From Vulcanimicrobium alpinum (GTDB taxonomy: Bacteria; Vulcanimicrobiota; Vulcanimicrobiia; Vulcanimicrobiales; Vulcanimicrobiaceae), in assembly GCF_027923555.1 (NCBI RefSeq), contig NZ_AP025523.1, positions 868,001-932,000 of the forward strand: DNA of 64,000 bases, written 5' to 3'. Shown here piece after piece: positions 26,232-61,445 of the stretch. How positions within the stretch are numbered: the stretch's first letter is position 1; the number at the start of each line of letters is the position of its first letter. Below the pieces are notes generated by a model, which saw nothing but the letters and a program-made list of their open reading frames with translations, made no database searches and was not told the origin of the DNA. Both the position numbers and the translations under genes were made by a program.

Positions 26232-29200
26232 ATGTGGCTGACGCGGTTCTCCATCCAGCGCCCCATCATCGTTGCGATGCTGTTCATCGCCATCGGGGTT
26301 TTCGGCGTCATCTCGTTCCAGAAGTTGGGGCGCAGCCTCAACCCGAACGTGACGTTTCCGATCGTCGTCGTCTCGGCTTCGTATCCGGGTGCTTCACCCG
26401 AAGAGATGGAGCGGCTGGTCATCAAGCCCATCGAAGACCAGATCGACGGGATCGACAACCTCGACCGCATGTCCGCAACGGCGCAGGAAGGCCGTGCATC
26501 GGTCGTCGTGCAGTTCAAACTCGACACGAACCTCGACTTCGCCGCGATCGACGTGCAACGGCGCGTGGACACCGCGCGCGTGTACATGCCGACGGACCTC
26601 GACCCGCCGGTCGTCGACAAGAGCGCGGGCGACCAGCAGGCGCCGATCCTCGAACTCGCGCTGAGTTCGAAGTCGCTCTCGGGGACCGCGCTCTCCGATT
26701 TGGTCGATCAGCGCATCGTGCCGGAGATCAAGCACATCCCCGACGTACAGAGCGTCGATGCACGCGGTGAGGTGAAGCGCGAGTTCCACGTCAGCCCCGA
26801 TCCGCTGCGGTTGTTGGGTACCGGAGCGACGCTCCCGGACGTCTTCAGCGCCGTCTCCAGCAACAATCAGAACTTGCCGGGCGGCCGGCTCGACTCGCCG
26901 TCGCGGGAGACCGAAGTCTCGATCCGCTCCGACATCGTGCAGGCGAGCGACATGCTCGGGATCCCGCTCGCGGTGCCGAGCCTTACCGGTGCATCAAATC
27001 CGAACGGTCTCAAGATCGGCAACGTCGCGACGACCGAAGACGGTCACGTCGAGCAGCGCATCGTCTCGAAGTACAATGGTTCGCCGACGGTGATCCTCGA
27101 TGTCAACCGCGTCATTCGCTCCGACGAGATTCACTCCACGGAGGTCGCACGCGCGCGGCTCGCCGAGATCGCGAAGCGCTATCCCGCCGTCAAGTTCGAA
27201 GAGATCGACGCGCCCGCCGAGTACACGCAGGCGTCGCTGAACGGCGTCATCCAGAGCCTGCTCGAAGGGATCGTCCTCACCGCGGTCGTGCTGATGCTCT
27301 TCCTGCACGCCTGGCGCAACGCGGTCGTCGTGATGATCGCGATCCCCGCTTCTCTGCTCGCGACCTTCATCGTGATGCGGGAACTGCACTTCACGCTCAA
27401 CATCGTCTCGCTGATGGGCCTCTCGCTGATCATCGGGATCCTGGTCGACGACTCGATCGTCGTGCTTGAGAACATCACCCGCCACCTCGACATGGGCCAG
27501 CGTCCGTTCGACGCGGCGATCGCGGGGCGCAGCGAGATCGGCGGCGCGGCCGTCGCGATCACGCTCGTCGACGTCGTCGTGTTCCTCCCGATCGCGTTCC
27601 TGAGCGGGATCGTCGGGAAGTACATGATCGAGTTCGGGATCGTCGTCGTGGTCGCGACGCTGTTCTCGCTGCTCGTCTCGTTCACGCTGACGCCGATGCT
27701 CGCGGCGCGCTGGTCGGTCCGCCGCCGTCATCCCGAGCCGCCGCGCTCGCTGGCATGGTTTCAGTACGGCTTCGAGCGGCTCACCGCGTGGTATCGCGAC
27801 ATCGCCTTCATGTACGTCGTGCGCCATCGCTGGCTGACGATCTCGGTCTGCATCCTGCTGTTGATCAACGCGATCGTCCTCGTCGCCGCCGCGTTCCCGA
27901 TCGCGCTCGGAATCGATGCGCTCGCGATTGCGGTCGCCCTGCTGTGGATTCCGTTCGCGGGTCTGCTCGGGCGCGCTGGAGACCGGCTCCAGTTTCCGCG
28001 CCTCGCGCGCACGCGCAAGGTCGTGAAGATCGCCGCGATCTGCGCCGTCGTGCTCGCGGTCGCCGGCGGCCTCACGAGCATCGCTGCACCCTCGGCTGGC
28101 GCGATCGTCGCCGCGGTCGGCGGCGCGGCCCTCGTGCTTGCGCTGGTGACGTGGTTCCTCGTACGCGTGATGATGGATCGCCCGCGCGTCAGTCCGAAGA
28201 GTTCGCTCGGCGTGAGCGGCGTGATCGCCGGGATCGCGGCCGTCGTCGCGCTGCTGATGATCACCAACCACGGGATCGAATCCGAGTTCATCCCGTCTAC
28301 CGAAGACGGATCGATCTACATGACGCTGACCTATCCGACGGGGACGCCGATGGCGACGACGCAGGCGGCGGCCGACCGCCTCGAGTCGAAGATCATCGGC
28401 GTCGACGGCGTGCGGAAAGTGATCACGACTGTCGGTACCAAGCCGGCGGGTTGGGGGGCGACGATCGGCGGCAACGTTGCGCGCCTATACGCCGGGATGG
28501 ACAAGAGTCGGCGCCGCGAGACGAACCGCGCCGTGCACGAGATCCGTGCGTTCTCGAGCGTCGTTCCGGGCGCGGTCTTCAACGTCGCCGGCGCCGGCGG
28601 CGGCGGCGGGGGCGGCGACCCGTTGTTCTACACGCTCTCAGGTCCAGAAGACGTTATCCAAGGCGCGGCCGACAAGCTCGCCGCGTATATCCGAGCGATC
28701 CCCGGCACCACCAACGTGCAGACCGGCGCGGAGAGTGAGGCCGACCGGCTCAACATCGTGATCGACCGCGCGAAGTGCGCAGTGCTCGGCGTGAGCCCGG
28801 GAACCGCCGCGACCGCGGCGCGCATCGCGATCGGCGGCGCGGTTGCGACGCGTGTCCGCACGGCGAGCGGCCTGGTCGACGTGCGCGTGCAGCTTCCGGC
28901 GGAATACCGCAACCGGCTCGGCGACGTGCAGAGCATCAAGCTGCGCGCGAACGACGGCTCCATCTACCGGTTGGGCGACGTAGCATCGTTCAGCTATGCG
29001 AAGGCGCCGACGAAAATCGAACGGCTCGACAAACAGCGCGTCGTGCGCGTGACGGGCGGATTCGATCCGGGGGCGACGACGCTGGGGCCGATCGTCTCGA
29101 AGATCAACGAAGCGGTCGCGCGTCCCGGTTTTCTGCCGAGCGGCGTCTCACTGCGCGCGTCGGGCGATTCGCAATTCTTCGCCGAGACGATGTCGAGCAT

Positions 29201-29771
29201 GGGCTTCGCCCTGCTGACCTCGTTCACGCTCGTCTACGTGTTGATGGTGATCCTGTACGGCTCGTTCTTCACGCCGGCGGTGATCATGCTCTCCGTCCCG
29301 GTCGCGCTGGTCGGCGCGCTCTTCGGCCTCGCCGCGACGCATCAAACGATCAATCTCTTCTCGATGATCGGGATCATCATGCTCTTCGGCCTCGTCGCGA
29401 AGAACGGGATCCTGCTCGTCGACTATGCGAACACGATGCGCAAGCGCGGCATGCGCGCCGTCGAGGCAATGCGCACCGCGGCCGGGACGCGATTGCGGCC
29501 GATCGTCATGACGACGGCGGCGATGGTCTTCGGGATGCTGCCGCTCGCGCTGGGCATCGCGGAGGGCGCCGAGTTCCGCAAGTCGATGGGGACCGTGCTC
29601 ATCGGCGGGCTGCTCAGCTCGCTGATCTTGACGCTCTTCCTCGTTCCGGTCGTGTACAGCTGGGTGGTCGGCTGGCTCGAACTGCGCGCCGATCGGCGCG
29701 CGATGCGGCACGAACACGACGACGACGACATTACCGAGTCGCGGATCCTCGCGGGCGCGGTCGGAGACTGA
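26232..29771 (+). CDS. RND-family efflux transporter with enlarged central membrane region
   Basis: An 1179-residue HAE1/AcrB-type proton-driven exporter. The opening helix after M-W-L-T-R-F-S-I-Q-R-P, the periplasmic porter repeats and the helix 4 motif G-I-L-V-D-D-S-I-V-V-L-E-N with its paired Asp are intact. Normal relatives are about 1040 residues. The excess lies between residues about 545 and 680, where three to four extra hydrophobic helices separate the first membrane half from the second porter half. A poly-Gly run lies near residue 795. No adaptor (MFP) or TolC-type gene is adjacent, so the pump works with distant partners or in a reduced form. Substrate unknown. Confidence 0.9.
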   Translation: MWLTRFSIQRPIIVAMLFIAIGVFGVISFQKLGRSLNPNVTFPIVVVSASYPGASPEEMERLVIKPIEDQIDGIDNLDRMSATAQEGRASVVVQFKLDTNLDFAAIDVQRRVDTARVYMPTDLDPPVVDKSAGDQQAPILELALSSKSLSGTALSDLVDQRIVPEIKHIPDVQSVDARGEVKREFHVSPDPLRLLGTGATLPDVFSAVSSNNQNLPGGRLDSPSRETEVSIRSDIVQASDMLGIPLAVPSLTGASNPNGLKIGNVATTEDGHVEQRIVSKYNGSPTVILDVNRVIRSDEIHSTEVARARLAEIAKRYPAVKFEEIDAPAEYTQASLNGVIQSLLEGIVLTAVVLMLFLHAWRNAVVVMIAIPASLLATFIVMRELHFTLNIVSLMGLSLIIGILVDDSIVVLENITRHLDMGQRPFDAAIAGRSEIGGAAVAITLVDVVVFLPIAFLSGIVGKYMIEFGIVVVVATLFSLLVSFTLTPMLAARWSVRRRHPEPPRSLAWFQYGFERLTAWYRDIAFMYVVRHRWLTISVCILLLINAIVLVAAAFPIALGIDALAIAVALLWIPFAGLLGRAGDRLQFPRLARTRKVVKIAAICAVVLAVAGGLTSIAAPSAGAIVAAVGGAALVLALVTWFLVRVMMDRPRVSPKSSLGVSGVIAGIAAVVALLMITNHGIESEFIPSTEDGSIYMTLTYPTGTPMATTQAAADRLESKIIGVDGVRKVITTVGTKPAGWGATIGGNVARLYAGMDKSRRRETNRAVHEIRAFSSVVPGAVFNVAGAGGGGGGGDPLFYTLSGPEDVIQGAADKLAAYIRAIPGTTNVQTGAESEADRLNIVIDRAKCAVLGVSPGTAATAARIAIGGAVATRVRTASGLVDVRVQLPAEYRNRLGDVQSIKLRANDGSIYRLGDVASFSYAKAPTKIERLDKQRVVRVTGGFDPGATTLGPIVSKINEAVARPGFLPSGVSLRASGDSQFFAETMSSMGFALLTSFTLVYVLMVILYGSFFTPAVIMLSVPVALVGALFGLAATHQTINLFSMIGIIMLFGLVAKNGILLVDYANTMRKRGMRAVEAMRTAAGTRLRPIVMTTAAMVFGMLPLALGIAEGAEFRKSMGTVLIGGLLSSLILTLFLVPVVYSWVVGWLELRADRRAMRHEHDDDDITESRILAGAVGD

Positions 29772-52913: not shown

Positions 52914-54524
52914 ATGAACCGCTTCGTCCTCGGCGCCGCGCTCGCGGTGCTCGCGCTCACCGGATCGCTTGCCGCGCAGGCTGCCCCCCTCCCCGGTCCG
53001 GTCGTCGGGGCGCCGGCGCCCGAATTCGCGCTCACGACGATCGACGGGAAACGCGTCCGGCTCGCGGACTATCGCGGCAGGACGCTGGTCGTGAACGTCT
53101 GGGGTTCGTGGTGCCCGCCGTGCCGGCTCGAGACGTCCGACCTGAACGCCGAGGCCGCCGCGCAGGCCGCGCACGGCGTCGCGTTCCTCGGCGTCGACAC
53201 GACCGAACCCGTGGCAACCGTCCGCGCGTTCGTCGCCGCGAAGGCGATCGTCTACCCGCAGGCCGCGACCGACGAAGCCGGCGAGTTCGTGCGCGCGTAC
53301 GGCATTCGCAACTTTCCGACCACGCTGGTCATCGATCCGCAGGGCATCCTGCGGGCGCGGCACGCCGACAACGTCCTCCCGCGCGCGCAACTGCACGCGT
53401 ACATCGTCGCCGCGCAGGCGTGGAAGAGCGCTCCGCTGACGAGCGCGTTCCAAACACAGCTCGACGCACTGCTCGCCCCCGCGTCGTATCCGTTCGCCGG
53501 CGATCCGGCGGCCGTGCGTTCCGCGGCGGCGCGCGCGGCGGCGGCGATCGCGCAGGCGGAGAACGCGCTCGACGACGCGATGGACGATACCTCGCGCGAC
53601 CACGATCTGATCAAGACGCACGAAGAAGAAGAGACGCTGCGCGCCGCCGCCATCGCCGCGCTGGCGCCGGTCGCCGTGTCTGACGCAGATCGCGCCCTGC
53701 TGGCGCGGCTGCGCGGCGACGAAGCGTCGGCGCTGGGCGATTGGAAGGCCGCCGACGCGGCATACGCGCAGGCGCTGCGGCTCGCGCCCGGCGACCTCGA
53801 CGCGCTCGCCGCCGACGCGTACGCCGTCTCGCAGCTCGGCGATCCGGCGCGCGCCGTCGCGATCGACGCGCAGCTCGCGGCGAAGAAGCCGTCGTACTAT
53901 GCGTTCGCCGGGCTCGGCCGCGCACAGGCAGACGCCGGCGACGTCGCCGCCGCGGAGGTCTCGTTCGACCGCGCGCAAACGCTTGCCGCGATGCCGGCAC
54001 AGCTCGCGTGGACGAACCTCTACTACGGCCGGATGGAGGCGAAAGCGCAGAACCCCGCCAAAGCGCGCGCCGCCTTCGCGCGCGCCCTGGCCGCCGCGCA
54101 GACAATCCCCTCGAACGACCCGCGCGCAGCGTGGTACGCGGAGCAGGCGCAGGAAGGGATGATCGCGCTGGGGATCCTGCCGGGCGCGGCGACTGCGCTC
54201 TCGCTCGCTCCCTGGACAGGCCCCGATCTCCCGGGTTCGGTCGCGAGCACGATCAAATACCGGCTCGCCGTCACCGGGAAGCCGGGCGCGAACGTTGCGC
54301 TCGCAGCCGGCGGCTTGCCGCCGCATTGGATCGGCTCGTTCTGCTCGGACCGCGTCTGCGCGCCGTTCCGCACCTCGGTGATCGTCCCGGCGGGCGGCGT
54401 GAAGATCGTCGAGTTTCAAGTCGTTCCGCTCGGTCCCGCGAAGGTCTCGACGATCAGCGTGCACGTCGACGCATCGGAACACCGCAAGCGCGTGGCGAGC
54501 GCCGTCGCGGAGGTACGGGTCTGA
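52914..54524 (+). CDS. exported TlpA-type thioredoxin with TPR-like C-terminal half
   Basis: A 536-residue exported protein: signal peptide to about residue 24, then a TlpA/ResA thioredoxin domain (about 28-175) with W-C-P-P-C (C67, C70) and the F-P-T-T cis-Pro. Residues about 200-430 form tetratricopeptide-like helical pairs rich in Ala. A beta-rich end domain carries S-F-C-S-D-R-V-C (two Cys). It is paralogous over its full length to the next gene, which overlaps its stop (TGATG). A periplasmic disulfide-reductase role, for example in cytochrome c or cofactor assembly, is likely from the domain. The Cys-containing end domain is not assigned to a family. Confidence 0.9.
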   Translation: MNRFVLGAALAVLALTGSLAAQAAPLPGPVVGAPAPEFALTTIDGKRVRLADYRGRTLVVNVWGSWCPPCRLETSDLNAEAAAQAAHGVAFLGVDTTEPVATVRAFVAAKAIVYPQAATDEAGEFVRAYGIRNFPTTLVIDPQGILRARHADNVLPRAQLHAYIVAAQAWKSAPLTSAFQTQLDALLAPASYPFAGDPAAVRSAAARAAAAIAQAENALDDAMDDTSRDHDLIKTHEEEETLRAAAIAALAPVAVSDADRALLARLRGDEASALGDWKAADAAYAQALRLAPGDLDALAADAYAVSQLGDPARAVAIDAQLAAKKPSYYAFAGLGRAQADAGDVAAAEVSFDRAQTLAAMPAQLAWTNLYYGRMEAKAQNPAKARAAFARALAAAQTIPSNDPRAAWYAEQAQEGMIALGILPGAATALSLAPWTGPDLPGSVASTIKYRLAVTGKPGANVALAAGGLPPHWIGSFCSDRVCAPFRTSVIVPAGGVKIVEFQVVPLGPAKVSTISVHVDASEHRKRVASAVAEVRV

Positions 54525-56089
54525 TGAGCGTCCTCATCGCGGCCGCCGTCGCGAGCGCGCTCGCGCTCAGCGGACCGCAGGTCGGCGCGCCGGCCCCGGA
54601 GTTCCATCTCACCACGCTCGACGGGCGGTCCGTCTCGCTGGCGTCGTATCGCGGCAAGACGCTCGTCGTCAACGACTGGGCGACGTGGTGCCCGCCGTGC
54701 CGCGAAGAGACCTCCGATCTCATCGCGTCGGCGAAATCGCTGAGCGCACGCGGCGACGTCGCGTTTCTCGGCGTCGACTCGACCGAAACGGCGCCGATCG
54801 TGCGCGCGTTCGTCGCGTCGAAAGCGGTGCCGTACCCGCAGGCGATCGACGACGCGCACGGCTTCCAGCACGCCTACGACATCCGCGCGTTCCCCACCAC
54901 AATCGTGATCGGCCCCGACGGGATGCTGCGCGCGCGCTACGTCGGCAACATCACCCCCGCGGTGCTCGGCGGTTTCGTCGCCGACGCGCGCGCCGGGCGC
55001 GACGGCGTCCTCGCATCGGCGGCGCAGCGCCGCGTCGACGCGCTCCTCGCGCCGTCGGCGTTCACGTTCACCGGTGATGCCGCCGCGCTGCGAGCGACGG
55101 CCGCAAAGGTCGCGTCCGCGATGGAGAAGGCCGAGGCGGTGGACGGCGATACCGATTATCTGCGTACGCAAGCCGAAGAGAACGCCCTGCGCGACAAGCT
55201 CGCGGCTGCGTTCGCGCCCGTCGCGACCGAAGACCGCGACCGCGCCGTCGTTGCGCGTCTGCAAGGCGACGCCGCCGTCGCGCGCGAGCAGTGGGACGAC
55301 GCGATCGCGGCGTATCGCCGCGGACTTGCTCTGTCGCCGAACGACGCCGATCTCGCGGGCGGGTACGCTGAAGCGCTGCGCGGCAAGGGTGAGTACGGCG
55401 CCGCTGCCGACGCCTACGCGCGGCTTGCCGAACTCGCGCCGAGCGTCGATGCGTACGTCTCGCTCGGCGAGGCCGACGCGCACGCCCGCCGCTTCGCCGA
55501 CGGGTCCGTCGCGTACGCGCAAGCGATCGGCCGCGCGCGCGCCGCGGTCGCCGCGTCGCCGAAGGATGCCAAAGCGATCCGGAAACTGGCATGGGCGTAC
55601 CTCTACCAAGGGCGGCTCTACGCGCTCGCGGGCGACCGCGCGCGAGCACGCGCGTCGTTCGCACAGACGAGCGCCTGGGCGTCGCGCCTGCCGAAGAACG
55701 ACACCCGGTACGCGATGTACCTCGAAGAAGCGCAGGAGGCGACGGTCGCATTCGACGCCGCACATCACGGCGGGAAAACGACGGTCTCGCTCGCGCCGTG
55801 GACGGGTCCCGACCTCCCGGGCTCGGCGGCGAGCACCTTCAAGTACCGGCTCGTCGTGGCGGGTGCGCCCGGCAAGACCGTTGCGCTGAACGCGACCGGT
55901 CTGCCGAAGCGCTGGATCGCGTCGTTCTGCAGCGACCGGCTGTGCACGCCGTTCCGCACGACGATCGCGCTCCCCGACTCCGGCGTGAAGGTCGTCGAGT
56001 TCACCGTCGTCCCGCGCACGCCGGCAGCGACGTCGCCGTTTGTCGGCGTCGAAGCCGACGGCGCGCACGCGGCCGTGCAGGTGCGTTAA
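54524..56089 (+). CDS. exported TlpA-type thioredoxin with TPR-like C-terminal half (paralog)
   Basis: A 521-residue tandem paralog of the preceding gene. The thioredoxin domain has W-C-P-P-C (C56, C59) and F-P-T-T. The helical repeat region (about residues 190-420) contains clearer TPR signatures (A-I-A-A-Y-R-R-G-L-A-L-S-P-N-D-A-D-L). The C-terminal domain repeats S-L-A-P-W-T-G-P-D-L-P-G-S and S-F-C-S-D-R-L-C. The N-terminal hydrophobic stretch is short, so export is likely but less clear than for its neighbour. The coupling and shared end domain suggest a heterodimer or two substrates of one pathway. Confidence 0.9.
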   Translation: MSVLIAAAVASALALSGPQVGAPAPEFHLTTLDGRSVSLASYRGKTLVVNDWATWCPPCREETSDLIASAKSLSARGDVAFLGVDSTETAPIVRAFVASKAVPYPQAIDDAHGFQHAYDIRAFPTTIVIGPDGMLRARYVGNITPAVLGGFVADARAGRDGVLASAAQRRVDALLAPSAFTFTGDAAALRATAAKVASAMEKAEAVDGDTDYLRTQAEENALRDKLAAAFAPVATEDRDRAVVARLQGDAAVAREQWDDAIAAYRRGLALSPNDADLAGGYAEALRGKGEYGAAADAYARLAELAPSVDAYVSLGEADAHARRFADGSVAYAQAIGRARAAVAASPKDAKAIRKLAWAYLYQGRLYALAGDRARARASFAQTSAWASRLPKNDTRYAMYLEEAQEATVAFDAAHHGGKTTVSLAPWTGPDLPGSAASTFKYRLVVAGAPGKTVALNATGLPKRWIASFCSDRLCTPFRTTIALPDSGVKVVEFTVVPRTPAATSPFVGVEADGAHAAVQVR

Positions 56090-56103: not shown

Positions 56104-56520
56104 TCAGTGCGCGGCGGCGCGTTCGAAGCCGCGCAGGACGGCTGCGAGCCTCCCGTTGATGTCGGCGGCCAGCGGCGCGAGCGCGTCGTTGCCGACGATC
56201 CCGAGCATCGCGCCGGCGTCGATGACGCCGACGGTCGTGCGGCCCTGCGCGCGTCGGACGAGGACGTTGCACGGCAGCAGCAGGCCGAGATCGGGCTCGG
56301 CGGCGAGCGCGGTGCGGGCAGCATCGGGGCGGCATGCGCCGAGGATGACGTACTCTCCGATCTCGGCGCCGAGCTTCGCGCGCAACGTCGCGGCGACGTC
56401 GATCTCGCACAGCACACCGAACCCCTGCTCGGCGAGCAGTTCTTTCGCGCGCGCGATCGCGGCCGGCACGTCGAGCGCGACCTCGGTACTGTTGCCGTAG
56501 GGCAGCGAAGTGATGTTCAT
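56104..56520 (-). CDS. DUF302-domain protein
   Basis: A 138-residue DUF302 protein with the family blocks G-F-G-V-L-C-E-I-D-V, G-A-C-R-P-D-A-A and L-G-L-L-L-P-C-N-V-L-V. DUF302 proteins have no fixed function but are often found with sulfur- or metal-related genes; the conserved Cys in the last block is present. ATG 56520 overlaps the stop of the RND pump gene (ATGA), so the two are co-expressed under the divergent CsoR-family regulator. There is no signal peptide. Confidence 0.92.
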   Translation of the reverse strand: MNITSLPYGNSTEVALDVPAAIARAKELLAEQGFGVLCEIDVAATLRAKLGAEIGEYVILGACRPDAARTALAAEPDLGLLLPCNVLVRRAQGRTTVGVIDAGAMLGIVGNDALAPLAADINGRLAAVLRGFERAAAH

Positions 56521-59500
56521 GCGGGTTGATACTCCTCGCGGTGAAGGGGAGTGCGGTTCGCGCGCGCGGCGGCGTGCTGCGCCGCAGCAGGCCGCGCGAC
56601 TGCGGCGTAGAGCAAGGGGACGATGAACAGCGAGAGCACGGCGCTGGCGCCCATCCCGAACACGAGCGCCCACGCCAGACCGCTCCACACCGGGTCGAAC
56701 GCGATGACCACCGCCGAGAGCATTCCGGCGGCCGCGGTGAGGGCGATCGGCCGGGCGCGCACGCTCCCCGCGTCGATGAGCGCTTCGCGCAGCGGCGCTC
56801 CCTGCGCGAGACGTTCTTCGACGAACTCGACCAGCACGATCGAATTACGTACAACGATTCCCGCCAGCGCGATGACGCCGATCATCGCCGTGGCGCTGAA
56901 GTACACGCCGAACGGTGCGAGCAGCGCGAAGCCCGGCATCACGCCGATCAGGCCGAGCGGAACGGCGCTCAGAACGACCAGCGGGACGCGCAGCGAGCGG
57001 AAGCGCGCGACGAGCACGAGGTAGATAAGCACGAGTGCACCGGCCATCGCAAGCCCGAGATCGCGGAACACGTCGAGCGTCAGCTGCCATTCGCCGTCCC
57101 AGCGCACGGCGTAGCCCGGCAAGATCGCGGCGTTGCGGCGCAGAGCGAGAAGCGTATCGATCACCGCATAGGTCGAGCTGCGCCCCGCCATCTCGCCCGA
57201 AACGTAGTCGACGTCCTGTCGATCTTCGCGGATCGCGGCTGCCGGCGTGCGTTCGGTGACGACGCGTGCGACCGACGCGAGCGGGACGGTCCCCGCGGTC
57301 GTGCTGGGGATCTGCGTCTGCGCGAGCGCGTCCAGCGAACGCCGCCGCTCGTCACCGTAGCGCAGGAAGATCGGAACGGGGTCACGAGCCTCGGGAAGGC
57401 GCACCGTTCCGGACGCGATGCCGCCGAGCGCGGCGGCCGCCTCGGTTGCCGCGAGCTGCGGGGAGACACCGCTCAGCGCGGCGCTGCGCTGGTCGACAAC
57501 CAGGTGCGCGCGCACCGGCTGCTGTTTCACGGAGCTGTCGACGTCGACCACGCCGGGCTCGGCGCTTACGAGATTCTCGACACTGCGCGCGATCGACGCG
57601 CGCACGGCGGGATCGGGGCCGCTCACCACGCCGAGAACCGTCGCGCGCACCGGCGGGCCGGGTGGCTCCTCGACGAGCCGCACCGCCGCTGCGTACGGCG
57701 CACCCGCGGCCTGAAGCGCTGGGCGCATGCGCCGCACGAACGATTCGGAACTCTCGTGCCGCTCGTGCGTGCCGATCAAGTTCACGCGCAGTTCGGCGTT
57801 CCAGGCGGCGTCACGGAAGAACGAGCCGCGGAGCACGCCGTTGAAATCCGGGACGGCGTGCGTGCCGACGAACGTTTCCACGTCGCGCACCGTCGGCTCG
57901 CGCAGCAGCACCGCTTCGACGGCGGCGGAGGCGCGACGCGTCCGTTCGAGATCGGTCCCGGCCGGCTCGTCGATCGCGACTGAGAACGTCTCTTCGTTCT
58001 GCGCCGGGAGCATCCGGAAGCGCACCAATTGCGCGAGGGGGAGGAGCATCGCGACGGCGAGCGCCGCCGCGACCGCGCCAACGAACAGACGCGCGCGCCG
58101 GCGATTGTCGAGCAGCCCGCCGAGCAGTCGGCGGTACGTCGTCTCCCAACGGCTGCGCGCCGCGTGCCGCACCGTCGGCGCCATCCGCAAGATGCGCACG
58201 GCGGCCCACGGCGTGACCACCAACGCGATCGCGAGCGACGCCAGCATCGCGATCGGGACGTCGAGCGGGATCGGACGCATGTACGGGCCCATCAGCCCGG
58301 TGACGAACGCCATGGGGAGAAATGCGAGGATCACGGTGAGCGTGGCGAGGATCGTCGGGCTCGCGACTTGAGCGACCGCGCTCACGACGAGCTCGCGGCG
58401 CTCGCGGCTCCCGGCGCGCGCGTGGCGATGAATGTTCTCGATGACGACGATCGCGTCGTCGACGAGCAGACCGAGCGAGAGGATCAGCGCAAAGAGCGTG
58501 ATGCGGTTGATCGTCTGGTGCGCGAGCGTCGCGACGCCCAACGTGATGAAAAGGGTCAACGGGATCGCCATCGCGACGACTGCGGCTTCGCGCCAGCCCA
58601 GCGCGACGAGCAGCAGCAACGAAACGATTCCGATCGCTTCGAGCAGGCGTTGAAAGAGTTCGTTTACCGCCGCGTTCGCTTTCGCGCCGTCGTTGCGCGT
58701 CACGGCGAGGCGCACTCCGGCGGGGAGCGCAAACGCGCGCGTCGCCGTAAGGACCGCCGACGCGACTTGGACGACGTTCGTCCCGCTGCGTTTGGCGATC
58801 GCGATGCTCACCGCGCGTTCGTCGCGCACCGCGCCGCGTTCGGAATACGTCGCATACGTCTCGCGCGGTGCGAGGGCTGGAGCGACCGTCGCGATCGCAC
58901 CGAGCGCGATCGGCACGCCGGCACGTACGCCCACGGTCGCGTTCGCGACGTCGGCAACCGATGCGAGCGGTGCGCCCGCGCGCACGTCGATCCGCGACGT
59001 CCCGTCGCCGACGTATCCGGCCGGCTGCTCGGCGTTTCCGCGCAGGGCCGCGTCGATCTGGGCGAACCCGACGCCGTAGCCCGCCAGCCGTGCCGGGTCG
59101 ATGGTGACGTTGACGATTCGGCCGCGGCCGCCGTAGAGCGTCAGCGTACCGACTCCCGGAAGCGGGGCGAGCGCGTCGCTCAGCCGGTAGGCGAGATCCC
59201 GCAGCGCGCCATCATCGTACGTAGCACTCGCGAGCGTGAGCACGACGACGGGAACGTCGTCGACATCGATCCGCGAGACGACCGGCGTTTGCGCATCCGG
59301 AGGAAGGGCGCTGCGATTGCCCAGCAGGCGCGTGTAGAGGTCGACATAGGCGGCGGTGGGATCGGTTCCCACGCGATAGCGGACGGTGATCGTCGATCGG
59401 CCGTCCTGCGAGTTCGCGTAGAGGTGCTCGACGTCGCCGATCTGGCCGATTACGCGCTCGAGCGGGACCGTCACCAGGCGCGCGATCTCGTCGCGGGAGC

Positions 59501-59678
59501 GGCCCTGCGCATCGGTCGTCACGATCGCCGTCGGGACGTTGATCCGCGGATTCTCCTCACGCGGCGTTACGGCGAGAGCAAGCACACCGCCCGCCACGAC
59601 CGCGGCGACCAGCACGGCGGTGAGCTTGGCATCGAGAAAGGCGCGCACGATGCGCGCGAGCGGGCCGAAATCGTCCAT
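56517..59678 (-). CDS. RND-family efflux transporter
   Basis: A 1053-residue RND exporter of normal length. The N-terminal helix, two porter repeats and the central helix with L-L-V-D-D-A-I-V-V-I-E-N (proton-relay Asp pair) are present. The CusA-type metal-binding Met residues are not evident, so an HAE-type or general substrate is more likely than Cu/Ag, despite the CsoR-family gene next to it. No membrane-fusion protein gene is adjacent. ATG 59678 lies just after a candidate operator shared with the divergent regulator. The downstream DUF302 gene is coupled. Confidence 0.92.
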   Translation of the reverse strand: MDDFGPLARIVRAFLDAKLTAVLVAAVVAGGVLALAVTPREENPRINVPTAIVTTDAQGRSRDEIARLVTVPLERVIGQIGDVEHLYANSQDGRSTITVRYRVGTDPTAAYVDLYTRLLGNRSALPPDAQTPVVSRIDVDDVPVVVLTLASATYDDGALRDLAYRLSDALAPLPGVGTLTLYGGRGRIVNVTIDPARLAGYGVGFAQIDAALRGNAEQPAGYVGDGTSRIDVRAGAPLASVADVANATVGVRAGVPIALGAIATVAPALAPRETYATYSERGAVRDERAVSIAIAKRSGTNVVQVASAVLTATRAFALPAGVRLAVTRNDGAKANAAVNELFQRLLEAIGIVSLLLLVALGWREAAVVAMAIPLTLFITLGVATLAHQTINRITLFALILSLGLLVDDAIVVIENIHRHARAGSRERRELVVSAVAQVASPTILATLTVILAFLPMAFVTGLMGPYMRPIPLDVPIAMLASLAIALVVTPWAAVRILRMAPTVRHAARSRWETTYRRLLGGLLDNRRRARLFVGAVAAALAVAMLLPLAQLVRFRMLPAQNEETFSVAIDEPAGTDLERTRRASAAVEAVLLREPTVRDVETFVGTHAVPDFNGVLRGSFFRDAAWNAELRVNLIGTHERHESSESFVRRMRPALQAAGAPYAAAVRLVEEPPGPPVRATVLGVVSGPDPAVRASIARSVENLVSAEPGVVDVDSSVKQQPVRAHLVVDQRSAALSGVSPQLAATEAAAALGGIASGTVRLPEARDPVPIFLRYGDERRRSLDALAQTQIPSTTAGTVPLASVARVVTERTPAAAIREDRQDVDYVSGEMAGRSSTYAVIDTLLALRRNAAILPGYAVRWDGEWQLTLDVFRDLGLAMAGALVLIYLVLVARFRSLRVPLVVLSAVPLGLIGVMPGFALLAPFGVYFSATAMIGVIALAGIVVRNSIVLVEFVEERLAQGAPLREALIDAGSVRARPIALTAAAGMLSAVVIAFDPVWSGLAWALVFGMGASAVLSLFIVPLLYAAVARPAAAQHAAARANRTPLHREEYQPA

Positions 59679-59696: not shown

Positions 59697-59712
59697 ATAC
59701 CCATGGGGGTAT
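59697..59712. promoter_or_regulatory. candidate CsoR/CstR-family operator
   Basis: ATACCCATGGGGGTAT is a near-palindrome with the C-tract/G-tract form typical of CsoR-family operators. It lies between the divergent RND and regulator genes. A related half-site (GGGGGTAT) recurs at 59729-59736 over the regulator -10 element, so the regulator could control both directions. Confidence 0.65.
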
Positions 59713-59733
59713 ATACAAGAATACTGTCGGGGG

Positions 59734-59739
59734 TATAAT
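59734..59739 (+). promoter_or_regulatory. -10 element of the CsoR-family gene, probably leaderless
   Basis: A perfect TATAAT ends 6 bases before the second GTG (59746) and 3 bases before the first (59743). A start point at normal distance falls on the start codon itself, so the message is probably leaderless. No good -35 is seen, compatible with an operator-dominated promoter. Confidence 0.55.
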
Positions 59740-59745
59740 CGAGTG

Positions 59746-60045
59746 GTGCCCGCAGCTTCGAAGTCCGACTCCCGGCGGCTGACCCTTCCCGACGACGAGG
59801 TACGTGCGCTTCAGCGCCGCCTGCGGCGCGTCGAAGGCCAGATCCGCGCCATCCAGCGCATGCTCGACGAGCGCGCCGATTGTCACGCCGTCGTCCAGCA
59901 GATGTCGGCAGCACGCGGAGCGCTCGACCGCTCGATGGTGCAGCTCATGGTGGGCAGCATGGCCGAGTGCATGCGCGATCCCCGCGGCGCCGTCGACGAG
60001 CGCGAGATGCGCCGCCTCGGGGAACGCTTCGCAAAGCTGCTCTGA
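59746..60045 (+). CDS. CsoR/CstR-family transcriptional repressor with Cys-Ser-Cys site
   Basis: A 99-residue all-helical CsoR-family repressor (R-R-L-R-R-V-E-G-Q-I-R-A-I-Q-R-M-L). Copper CsoR uses Cys-His-Cys with the two Cys 29 residues apart and the His 4 residues before the second. Here C46 and C75 have that spacing but the His position is S71, so the copper site is incomplete. Persulfide sensors (CstR) keep the two Cys and lack that His. Neighbouring DUF302 and DUF2892 genes fit sulfur stress. GTG 59746 or 59743 is the start, directly after TATAAT. It diverges from the RND pump operon it probably controls. Confidence 0.88.
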   Translation: MPAASKSDSRRLTLPDDEVRALQRRLRRVEGQIRAIQRMLDERADCHAVVQQMSAARGALDRSMVQLMVGSMAECMRDPRGAVDEREMRRLGERFAKLL

Positions 60046-60058
60046 ACGAGCGATCGTG

Positions 60059-60310
60059 TTAATGCGGCGCGTTATGCGCGCCGCCTCGCGATCGCGAGCG
60101 GTTCGACATCAGGCACCAGCCGGTGTACGCCGACTGAATCAAGTTCACGCCGACGAACGCGCCGAGCCAGAGCCAGCGGAGATCGACGTACGCCGCGAGC
60201 ACGAGGCTCGCGAGGGCCACCGTTCCGCCGACCGCTCGGACGATGCGTTCGATCGTCCATCCGCGACGGTCGGCGGGTGCTCCCAGTTCCGACCACAATG
60301 ACGTTCGCAT
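60059..60310 (-). CDS. DUF2892 (YgaP-type) inner-membrane protein
   Basis: An 83-residue protein with two helices (V-G-G-T-V-A-L-A-S-L-V-L-A-A-Y and W-L-W-L-G-A-F-V-G-V-N-L-I-Q) and the characteristic loop end S-A-Y-T-G-W-C. DUF2892 forms the membrane anchor of YgaP-type rhodaneses and is often found in persulfide-responsive operons. ATG 60310 was chosen over the upstream open frame because GGAGG lies 5 bases before it. It is convergent with the CsoR-family gene, 14 bases apart. Confidence 0.85.
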   Translation of the reverse strand: MRTSLWSELGAPADRRGWTIERIVRAVGGTVALASLVLAAYVDLRWLWLGAFVGVNLIQSAYTGWCLMSNRSRSRGGAHNAPH

Positions 60311-60412: not shown

Positions 60413-60601
60413 TCACCACAGAACGCCGTCGCCGACGAGGATGTAGAGAATCGGGCCAACGCCCCACAGCAGGGCGACGATCGCCCAGATCGCTTTCTGC
60501 ATGCTCGTGAGGTCGCTGCGCGCGGCGAGGTTGATCCACGTGAGTACGACCGCGACCGGATGCAGAAACGCCGAGATGAGGATTTCGAGCGTGAGCTTCA
60601 T
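60413..60601 (-). CDS. small PLDc_N-like membrane protein
   Basis: A 62-residue protein with two helices. The C-terminal A-I-W-A-I-V-A-L-L-W-G-V-G-P-I-L-Y-I-L-V-G-D resembles the PLDc_N segment found at the N-terminus of cardiolipin synthases and in free-standing small membrane proteins. The role is unknown. It starts 4 bases after the end of the metallo-beta-lactamase gene on the same strand and may be the last gene of that operon. Confidence 0.7.
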   Translation of the reverse strand: MKLTLEILISAFLHPVAVVLTWINLAARSDLTSMQKAIWAIVALLWGVGPILYILVGDGVLW

Positions 60602-60605
60602 GCGC

Positions 60606-61445
60606 TCAGAAGAACGGGTTGTGGGCGCGTTCCGCGCCGATCGTCGAGGGCGGCCCGTGGCCCGGCATCACCACCGTCGCCTCGTCGAGCGCGAACAGCT
60701 TGAGCCTCACGCTCGCGAGCAGATCCGCGTAGGTCGACACGTCGGCGAAGATCCCGCCTACCGAACCAGCGAACAGCGTGTCGCCGGTGAAGACCGTCGA
60801 GCGGAAGAGGAAGCACGACGAGCCGTCGGTGTGGCCCGGCGTGTGCAGCATGCGGATCGCCGCGTCGTCGCCGAACGGCAGGTCGTCGCCGTCGGCGACA
60901 GGGAGCGCGCGGTGCGCGAGCGCGCCGATTGCGTGTGCGTCGCTGCGGTGCATCACGATCTGCGCGTCGGGAAAAGCGCGCGCGACGTCGGCGGTCGCGT
61001 CGCAGTGGTCGGCGTGCTTGTGCGTGATGAGGATGTAGCGCAGCGCGTAGGGCCCGTCATTCACCGCGCGCAGCAGCGTCTGCGGAAGCCCGGCCGGATC
61101 GATGAGCGCGGCCGTCTTCCCGTCGCCCAGGAAGAAGAGATAGCCGTTCGACGGATGCGGATCGTGGGGGTGGTGACGCACGTCGTGCGGGATCTCGGCG
61201 TCGGGGTACCAGCGCCGGGCCGCGGCGTCGGCGAACTTCCCCGGATCGAGCCGCAGCACGGTCGCGACGGCACGCGCCTCGTCATCGCGCGGAACGCCGT
61301 CGCCGCGGGTCCAGCCCGCGATCGTTGCCGCGTCGAGCCCGGTGCGCTGCGCGAGCGTCCGCGAATCGAGCCCTGCCCCGCGCATCGCCTTGCGGAGCAC
61401 GTCCGCCGGATCGTCTTCGAGCGGGATGCGCGGCCAAGCATCCAT
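60606..61445 (-). CDS. metallo-beta-lactamase-fold hydrolase with N-terminal HTH
   Basis: A 279-residue protein. Residues about 10-70 form a Cro/C1-type helix-turn-helix (L-A-Q-R-T-G-L-D-A-A-T-I-A-G-W). The rest is an MBL domain of the glyoxalase II-like type with T-H-K-H-A-D-H (H142, H144, D146, H147), the T-P-G-H-T-D-G-S loop, G-D-T-L-F and a final M-P-G-H-G. Such HTH-MBL fusions are uncommon; the HTH may bind DNA or act as a protein-interaction module. ATG 61445 shares bases with the stop of the preceding phosphatase gene (TAATG), so the two are coupled. Confidence 0.9.
   Translation of the reverse strand: MDAWPRIPLEDDPADVLRKAMRGAGLDSRTLAQRTGLDAATIAGWTRGDGVPRDDEARAVATVLRLDPGKFADAAARRWYPDAEIPHDVRHHPHDPHPSNGYLFFLGDGKTAALIDPAGLPQTLLRAVNDGPYALRYILITHKHADHCDATADVARAFPDAQIVMHRSDAHAIGALAHRALPVADGDDLPFGDDAAIRMLHTPGHTDGSSCFLFRSTVFTGDTLFAGSVGGIFADVSTYADLLASVRLKLFALDEATVVMPGHGPPSTIGAERAHNPFF

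Follow-up and report, generated by a model that had tools for sequence, protein, structure and literature searches.

A CstR-like repressor, probably responsive to per- or polysulfides, beside an RND–DUF302 operon of Vulcanimicrobium alpinum

The window, i.e., the whole 64,000-nucleotide stretch of Vulcanimicrobium alpinum DNA that was analysed, has a GC content of 69%, and its nearest named relatives are WPS-2/Eremiobacterota MAGs. It contains a small regulator gene which is divergent from a pump gene and features the following elements in its surroundings:

56104..56526, minus strand: DUF302 protein, 140 aa (PF03625, 1.2e-21)
56517..59678, minus strand: RND (AcrB-type) permease, 1053 aa (PF00873, 5e-153), divergent from the regulator
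59697..59712, no strand: predicted operator 1, ATACCCATGGGGGTAT, an exact 6-4-6 palindrome; unique exact match in the genome, shared with most relatives
59712..59739, plus strand: predicted regulator promoter, TATACA, 16 nt, TATAAT; 10/12 match, 0.1 expected in shuffles
59721..59736, no strand: probable operator 2, ATACTGTCGGGGGTAT, 2 mismatches; a weaker copy overlapping the regulator's -10 element
59746..60045, plus strand: CsoR/RcnR-family (PF02583) repressor with a C46-S71-C75 site, 99 aa, apparently leaderless GTG start (Pfam, alignment, tree, conserved -10 gap)
60059..60310, minus strand: DUF2892/YgaP-like membrane protein, 83 aa (PF11127, 8e-10), convergent with the regulator

An earlier note on this DNA had described the repressor as lying beside DUF302 and DUF2892 genes. 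This holds for DUF2892, which adjoins the regulator and whose PF11127 match also bears out the proposed YgaP-type membrane domain; the DUF302 gene is not adjacent but sits past the RND gene, downstream of it and with an overlap of 10 bp with its end. The solved homologs of the DUF302 protein, 1j3m and 1q9u, are of unknown function, and to our knowledge the same is true of the family as a whole, for which structures are available. Neither an adaptor nor a TolC gene was found adjoining the permease gene at the window locus, and adaptor genes are present elsewhere in the genome. With 275 bits, the permease falls short of the 701 bits that serve as threshold for metal pumps of the CusA/CzcA type. 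A special clade of permeases dedicated to sulfide was considered and is unsupported, as the permease tree mixes sulfur-linked with TetR-linked pumps; several rows of own paralogs in this tree are unreliable, since they contain sequence from upstream or from a wrong frame. A second RND permease is encoded inside the window (26241-29663, plus strand). Convergent with the DUF302 gene are two tandem, overlapping genes on the plus strand (52914-54524 and 54497-56089) for TlpA-like thioredoxin domains fused to TPR repeats, which are about 50% alike. Furthermore, a small membrane protein with a weak PLDc_N match just below the cut-off (60413-60601, minus strand) and an MBL-fold hydrolase (60606-61445, minus strand) are encoded there, the latter being an odd fusion of a GloB-like enzyme with an N-terminal helix-turn-helix domain. 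It is not claimed as a persulfide dioxygenase, its best profile being GloB-like and below the cut-off.

The regulator matches the PF02583 profile (CsoR/RcnR family, DUF156) over its helical core with an E value of 4.8e-20 and 72 bits, far above the cut-off of 22.8, which substantiates the initial assignment to the CsoR family. The residues C46, S71 and C75 likewise stand as first counted from GTG 59746; with a start at GTG 59743 they become C47, S72 and C76. The site thus reads Cys-Ser-Cys where the Cu(I) site of copper CsoR is Cys-His-Cys, and the second Cys occupies the position at which RcnR, like the genome's own RcnR/FrmR-type paralog, has a His. An alignment of 30 orthologs, one from each phylum genome that features a close ortholog of the regulator, shows no variation at either Cys or at the Ser. 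In an alignment with CstR (PDB 7mq1) and relatives, the two Cys match the positions C31 and C60 of CstR. The residue at the His position varies between lineages: the regulator and all phylum orthologs have Ser, most actinobacterial relatives Gly or Thr, CstR (7mq1) and Bacillota Asn, and copper CsoR, InrS and basal Chloroflexi His. The genome (a contig of 3,508,363 bp) contains two further PF02583 paralogs, one with a canonical Cys-His-Cys CsoR core adjoining a permease gene and the other one of the RcnR/FrmR type. Elsewhere in the family, the Pseudomonas members L113, L117, L119 and L127 are without the second Cys; for L117, L119 and L127, genes of MBL, rhodanese and cytochrome bd-like proteins are found in the vicinity.

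A maximum-likelihood tree of 88 cores over 77 columns places the regulator inside a clade of 22 rows (99/97) which is nested in a clade of 75 rows (99/96). The larger clade takes in the entries 7mq1 and 7mq2, identified as CstR (PMC9774590), and leaves out copper CsoR, InrS, FrmR, RcnR and the genome's own paralogs. In addition, the regulator is grouped with actinobacterial regulators adjoining genes of dioxygenase-rhodaneses. The sampling is uneven, because most of the 75 rows stem from a search seeded with the regulator's own subfamily; Cys-His-Cys CsoRs were among the results of this search as well and fall outside the clade. The phylogenetic comparison suggested in the earlier note came out in favour of CstR and away from copper CsoR in the maximum-likelihood tree, but approximately unbiased (AU) tests on the 77 columns rejected none of the alternatives, i.e., grouping with copper CsoR (p 0.085), with FrmR/RcnR (p 0.21) or with CstR alone (p 0.3). 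Hence, the tree supports the CstR grouping and does not prove it. The Chloroflexi sequences L096, L099, L106, L107 and L122, which are basal in the clade on the CstR side, keep the His; its loss may have taken place within this clade.

The intergenic region between the divergent genes was expected to hold an operator of C-tract/G-tract type, and this was confirmed. The candidate operator has the layout ATACCC-ATGG-GGGTAT, and in a pattern search of the 3,508,363-bp genome the palindrome ATACCCNNNNGGGTAT had its only exact match at 59697-59712, so that no second exact site of a wider regulon emerged. The single site with one mismatch (C1:3005580) adjoins an apparently transporter-like gene without a sulfur link, and sites with two mismatches amount to 22 versus 5 with a reversed-pattern control. 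No operator match was found in the DNA upstream of the DUF2892 gene (60059-60310). The palindrome recurs upstream of the regulators of most orthologs, of the G015 operon and of many relatives outside the phylum, Paenibacillus sulfur operons adjoining CstR-type genes among them; a second G-tract site comparable to operator 2 occurs in several relatives. In relatives, the operator is located inside the spacer of a likely divergent promoter, where a self-complementary TTGCAA can act as -35 element in both directions, the window version being less exact. The regulator transcript had been proposed to be leaderless. In agreement with this, TATAAT (59734-59739) ends 6 nt ahead of GTG 59746 and the same gap is kept in 17 of 20 relatives, so that a leaderless transcript appears to be a conserved feature.

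The gene content of relatives adds functional context. Their typical divergent operon has the order DUF2892-adaptor-RND-TolC-DUF302, with some members absent or located elsewhere in some genomes. DUF2892 is its first gene, and compared to this arrangement the window copy is reduced, with DUF2892 on the regulator's other side. In a same-genus genome (G126), the RND gene and the regulator likewise diverge directly from each other and DUF302 follows RND, these genes being spread over two contigs. The pump is found beside the regulator in nearly all of the 30 phylum genomes. Among 149 genomes, regulator and close RND pump occur together in 27, the regulator alone in three and the pump alone in one (Fisher p 3e-25, with related genomes counted as independent); two of the three regulator-only genomes have cut contigs carrying partial RND genes. 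Genes of H2S or persulfide oxidation adjoin seven of the orthologs, while the window operon comprises only RND and DUF302. An SQR-like flavoprotein ends the operon in L038, L043, L046, L047, L051 and L054. The L038 protein, the one flavoprotein tested in full, matched solved sulfide:quinone reductases (SQR) with an E value of 1e-37, and was far under the cut-off of the sole NCBIfam SQR model that it matched. In the alignment with the A. ferrooxidans SQR, its C133 and C171 fall on two Cys that are known to be catalytic. The seventh ortholog, L053 (G015), is without a pump and is flanked by a DUF442-type gene and a CstB-like dioxygenase-rhodanese fusion matching 3r2u and 3tp9, a cluster resembling cstR-cstB of Staphylococcus. 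Moreover, cydAB adjoins the regulator in one relative's genome, and outside the phylum, the nearest relatives often adjoin dioxygenase-rhodanese, rhodanese, DUF302 or SQR genes. In the window genome itself, a search for a close homolog of the relatives' SQR gave only an NDH-2-like match. A persulfide-dioxygenase-like gene of the same genome, L166 (C1:2588962-2589768), matches L053 across in-frame stops and is possibly a truncated gene, or else the match overruns the gene ends.

CstR-type sensors (CsoR-like sulfurtransferase repressors) have been described in Firmicutes, in which they control enzymes of sulfide oxidation. CstR of Staphylococcus, Streptococcus and Enterococcus and YrkD of Bacillus licheniformis share with the regulator the PF02583 family, both Cys positions, the replaced copper His, a palindromic GC-tract operator, sulfur-oxidation genes as neighbours (in the regulator's orthologs) and the maximum-likelihood grouping. 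They differ from it in the residue at the His position (Asn in CstR, Ser here) and in the operon, which comprises rhodanese, CstB and SQR instead of an RND pump and DUF302. Copper CsoR of M. tuberculosis, Streptomyces and Geobacillus is alike in family and in the positions of the two Cys, and differs in its His ligand and its target genes, besides being represented by a separate CsoR in the genome. Accordingly, there is good support for the proposal that the regulator is a thiol sensor of CstR-like type and not a copper sensor, namely the invariant Ser of the 30 orthologs, the grouping with CstR, the SQR-like, CstB-like, rhodanese and DUF302 neighbours in relatives, and that separate Cys-His-Cys CsoR.

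The regulator is thus probably a CstR-like, dithiol-based repressor of the RND-DUF302 operon which senses per- or polysulfides. Its family, residues, predicted operator and gene neighbourhood, together with their conservation, are direct observations; from these, we infer its ligand, the Cys bridge, derepression and export by the pump as follows. The reduced repressor, a tetramer by analogy, would bind to operator 1 (the palindrome, 59697-59712) and to the weaker operator 2 (59721-59736). Since both sites overlap the divergent promoter region, it would thereby shut off its own gene as well as the RND-DUF302 operon. Sulfide stress would raise the level of low-molecular-weight persulfides or polysulfides, whereupon a di- or polysulfide bridge could form between C46 and C75' of different subunits, comparable to the C31-C60' bridges of S. 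aureus CstR (PMC5480029; PMC9774590). The bridged repressor would leave the DNA, allowing production of the pump and the DUF302 protein. The replacement of the copper-ligand His by Ser71 would have abolished the copper site. Possible export candidates are persulfides, polysulfides, metal-sulfide complexes and organic toxicants. Several points count against this CstR-like reading, i.e., the AU results for copper CsoR and FrmR/RcnR, the His of basal Chloroflexi within the large clade and the lack of a close SQR homolog in the window genome. Moreover, TTHA1953 of Thermus, a CsoR-family sulfur regulator, showed no response to NaHS (PMC10318464). The published Vulcanimicrobium alpinus strain WC8-2 has a Sox system (PMC9758169).

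A broader function in thiol stress, with C46 and C75 mainly answering electrophiles, quinones, nitroxyl or oxidants, the pump exporting organic toxicants and the sulfur link of relatives being secondary, is rather unlikely, but draws on several observations. Pumps of the same RND branch occur under TetR control as well, in settings without a sulfur link, S. aureus CstR is crosslinked by nitroxyl as well (PMC5480029), and the window copy is without SQR and dioxygenase neighbours. Against it stands the recurrence of SQR-like, CstB-like, DUF442, rhodanese, cytochrome bd and DUF302 genes as neighbours across relatives. Even less probable is a sensor of Cu(I) or another metal which has lost the His, binds the metal via its two Cys and controls a metal-exporting RND pump, in spite of the family membership, the AU value of 0.085 and the existence of metal exporters among RND pumps. 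The low score of the permease against the CusA/CzcA models argues against it, as does the RcnR/FrmR-type paralog that the genome holds besides its CsoR. In particular, a copper CsoR with a lost His was judged unlikely because of the invariant Ser, the separate CsoR and the maximum-likelihood placement. FrmR features Pro2 and Cys35 (PMC5016687), and, counted from GTG 59746, the second residue of the regulator is Pro, too. Still, a formaldehyde sensor of this kind is hardly conceivable, since this Pro sits 44 residues before Cys46, compared to 33 in FrmR, and is not conserved in relatives, which rules out the assignment on Pro2 grounds. Besides, no frmA-like gene was present among the neighbours searched, and FrmR clusters with the genome's other paralog in the tree.

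Returning to the CstR-like sensor, its pairing with an RND pump and the Cys-Ser-Cys branch in the phylum are new as far as found, the sensor type and the kind of pump being already known. The pump had been regarded as an unusual target for CstR. This appears correct for the CsoR/CstR family, as no report of such a regulator on an RND operon was found in the literature searched, which excluded the main CstR papers. Nevertheless, the target is less unusual than claimed, since sulfide-related RND operons have been linked to ArsR-type regulators and an H2S-induced SQR-RND operon has been published. For sulfane-sulfur sensors of the ArsR type, RND pumps have been predicted as targets (PMC12423496), and plasmid pPAN2 of Paracoccus pantotrophus carries an RND module under an ArsR-type sensor (BigR/SqrR/sHdrR type) with the same DUF2892-adaptor-RND order, adjoining genes of an MBL hydrolase, a TIGR01244-type sulfurtransferase and YgaP-like proteins. 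Its repressor is of the ArsR and not the CsoR family, and the permease is only about 38% identical. In Azospira suillum PS (PMC5358917), an RND pump, adaptor and SQR form one operon (Dsui_3440-3443), as they occur together in relatives of the regulator; this operon was H2S-induced and fitness-linked, a DUF2892 gene was induced about tenfold, and deletion of the operon left the H2S oxidation rate unchanged. Similar pumps thus occur near sulfur genes under ArsR in Paracoccus and near SQR in Azospira, which suggests efflux as a recurrent yet neglected part of the sulfide response.

Going further, the RND pump together with the DUF302 and DUF2892 proteins might serve a dedicated export of persulfides, polysulfides or their products under a separate Cys-Ser-Cys CstR branch in Vulcanimicrobiota (Eremiobacterota), which we consider possible, though doubtful; if true, DUF302 would gain a role in sulfur handling. 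A CstR-like repressor would in any case be linked to an efflux pump and DUF302 in a phylum from which very few isolates are available, and the regulator, its single predicted operator and the operon are small enough for direct testing. DUF302 genes have also been found in sox clusters (PMC5037610) and in the sqr1 plasmid operon of Synechocystis (PMC5061849), and a Pseudanabaena plasmid features a rhodanese-adaptor-RND arrangement with cydAB.
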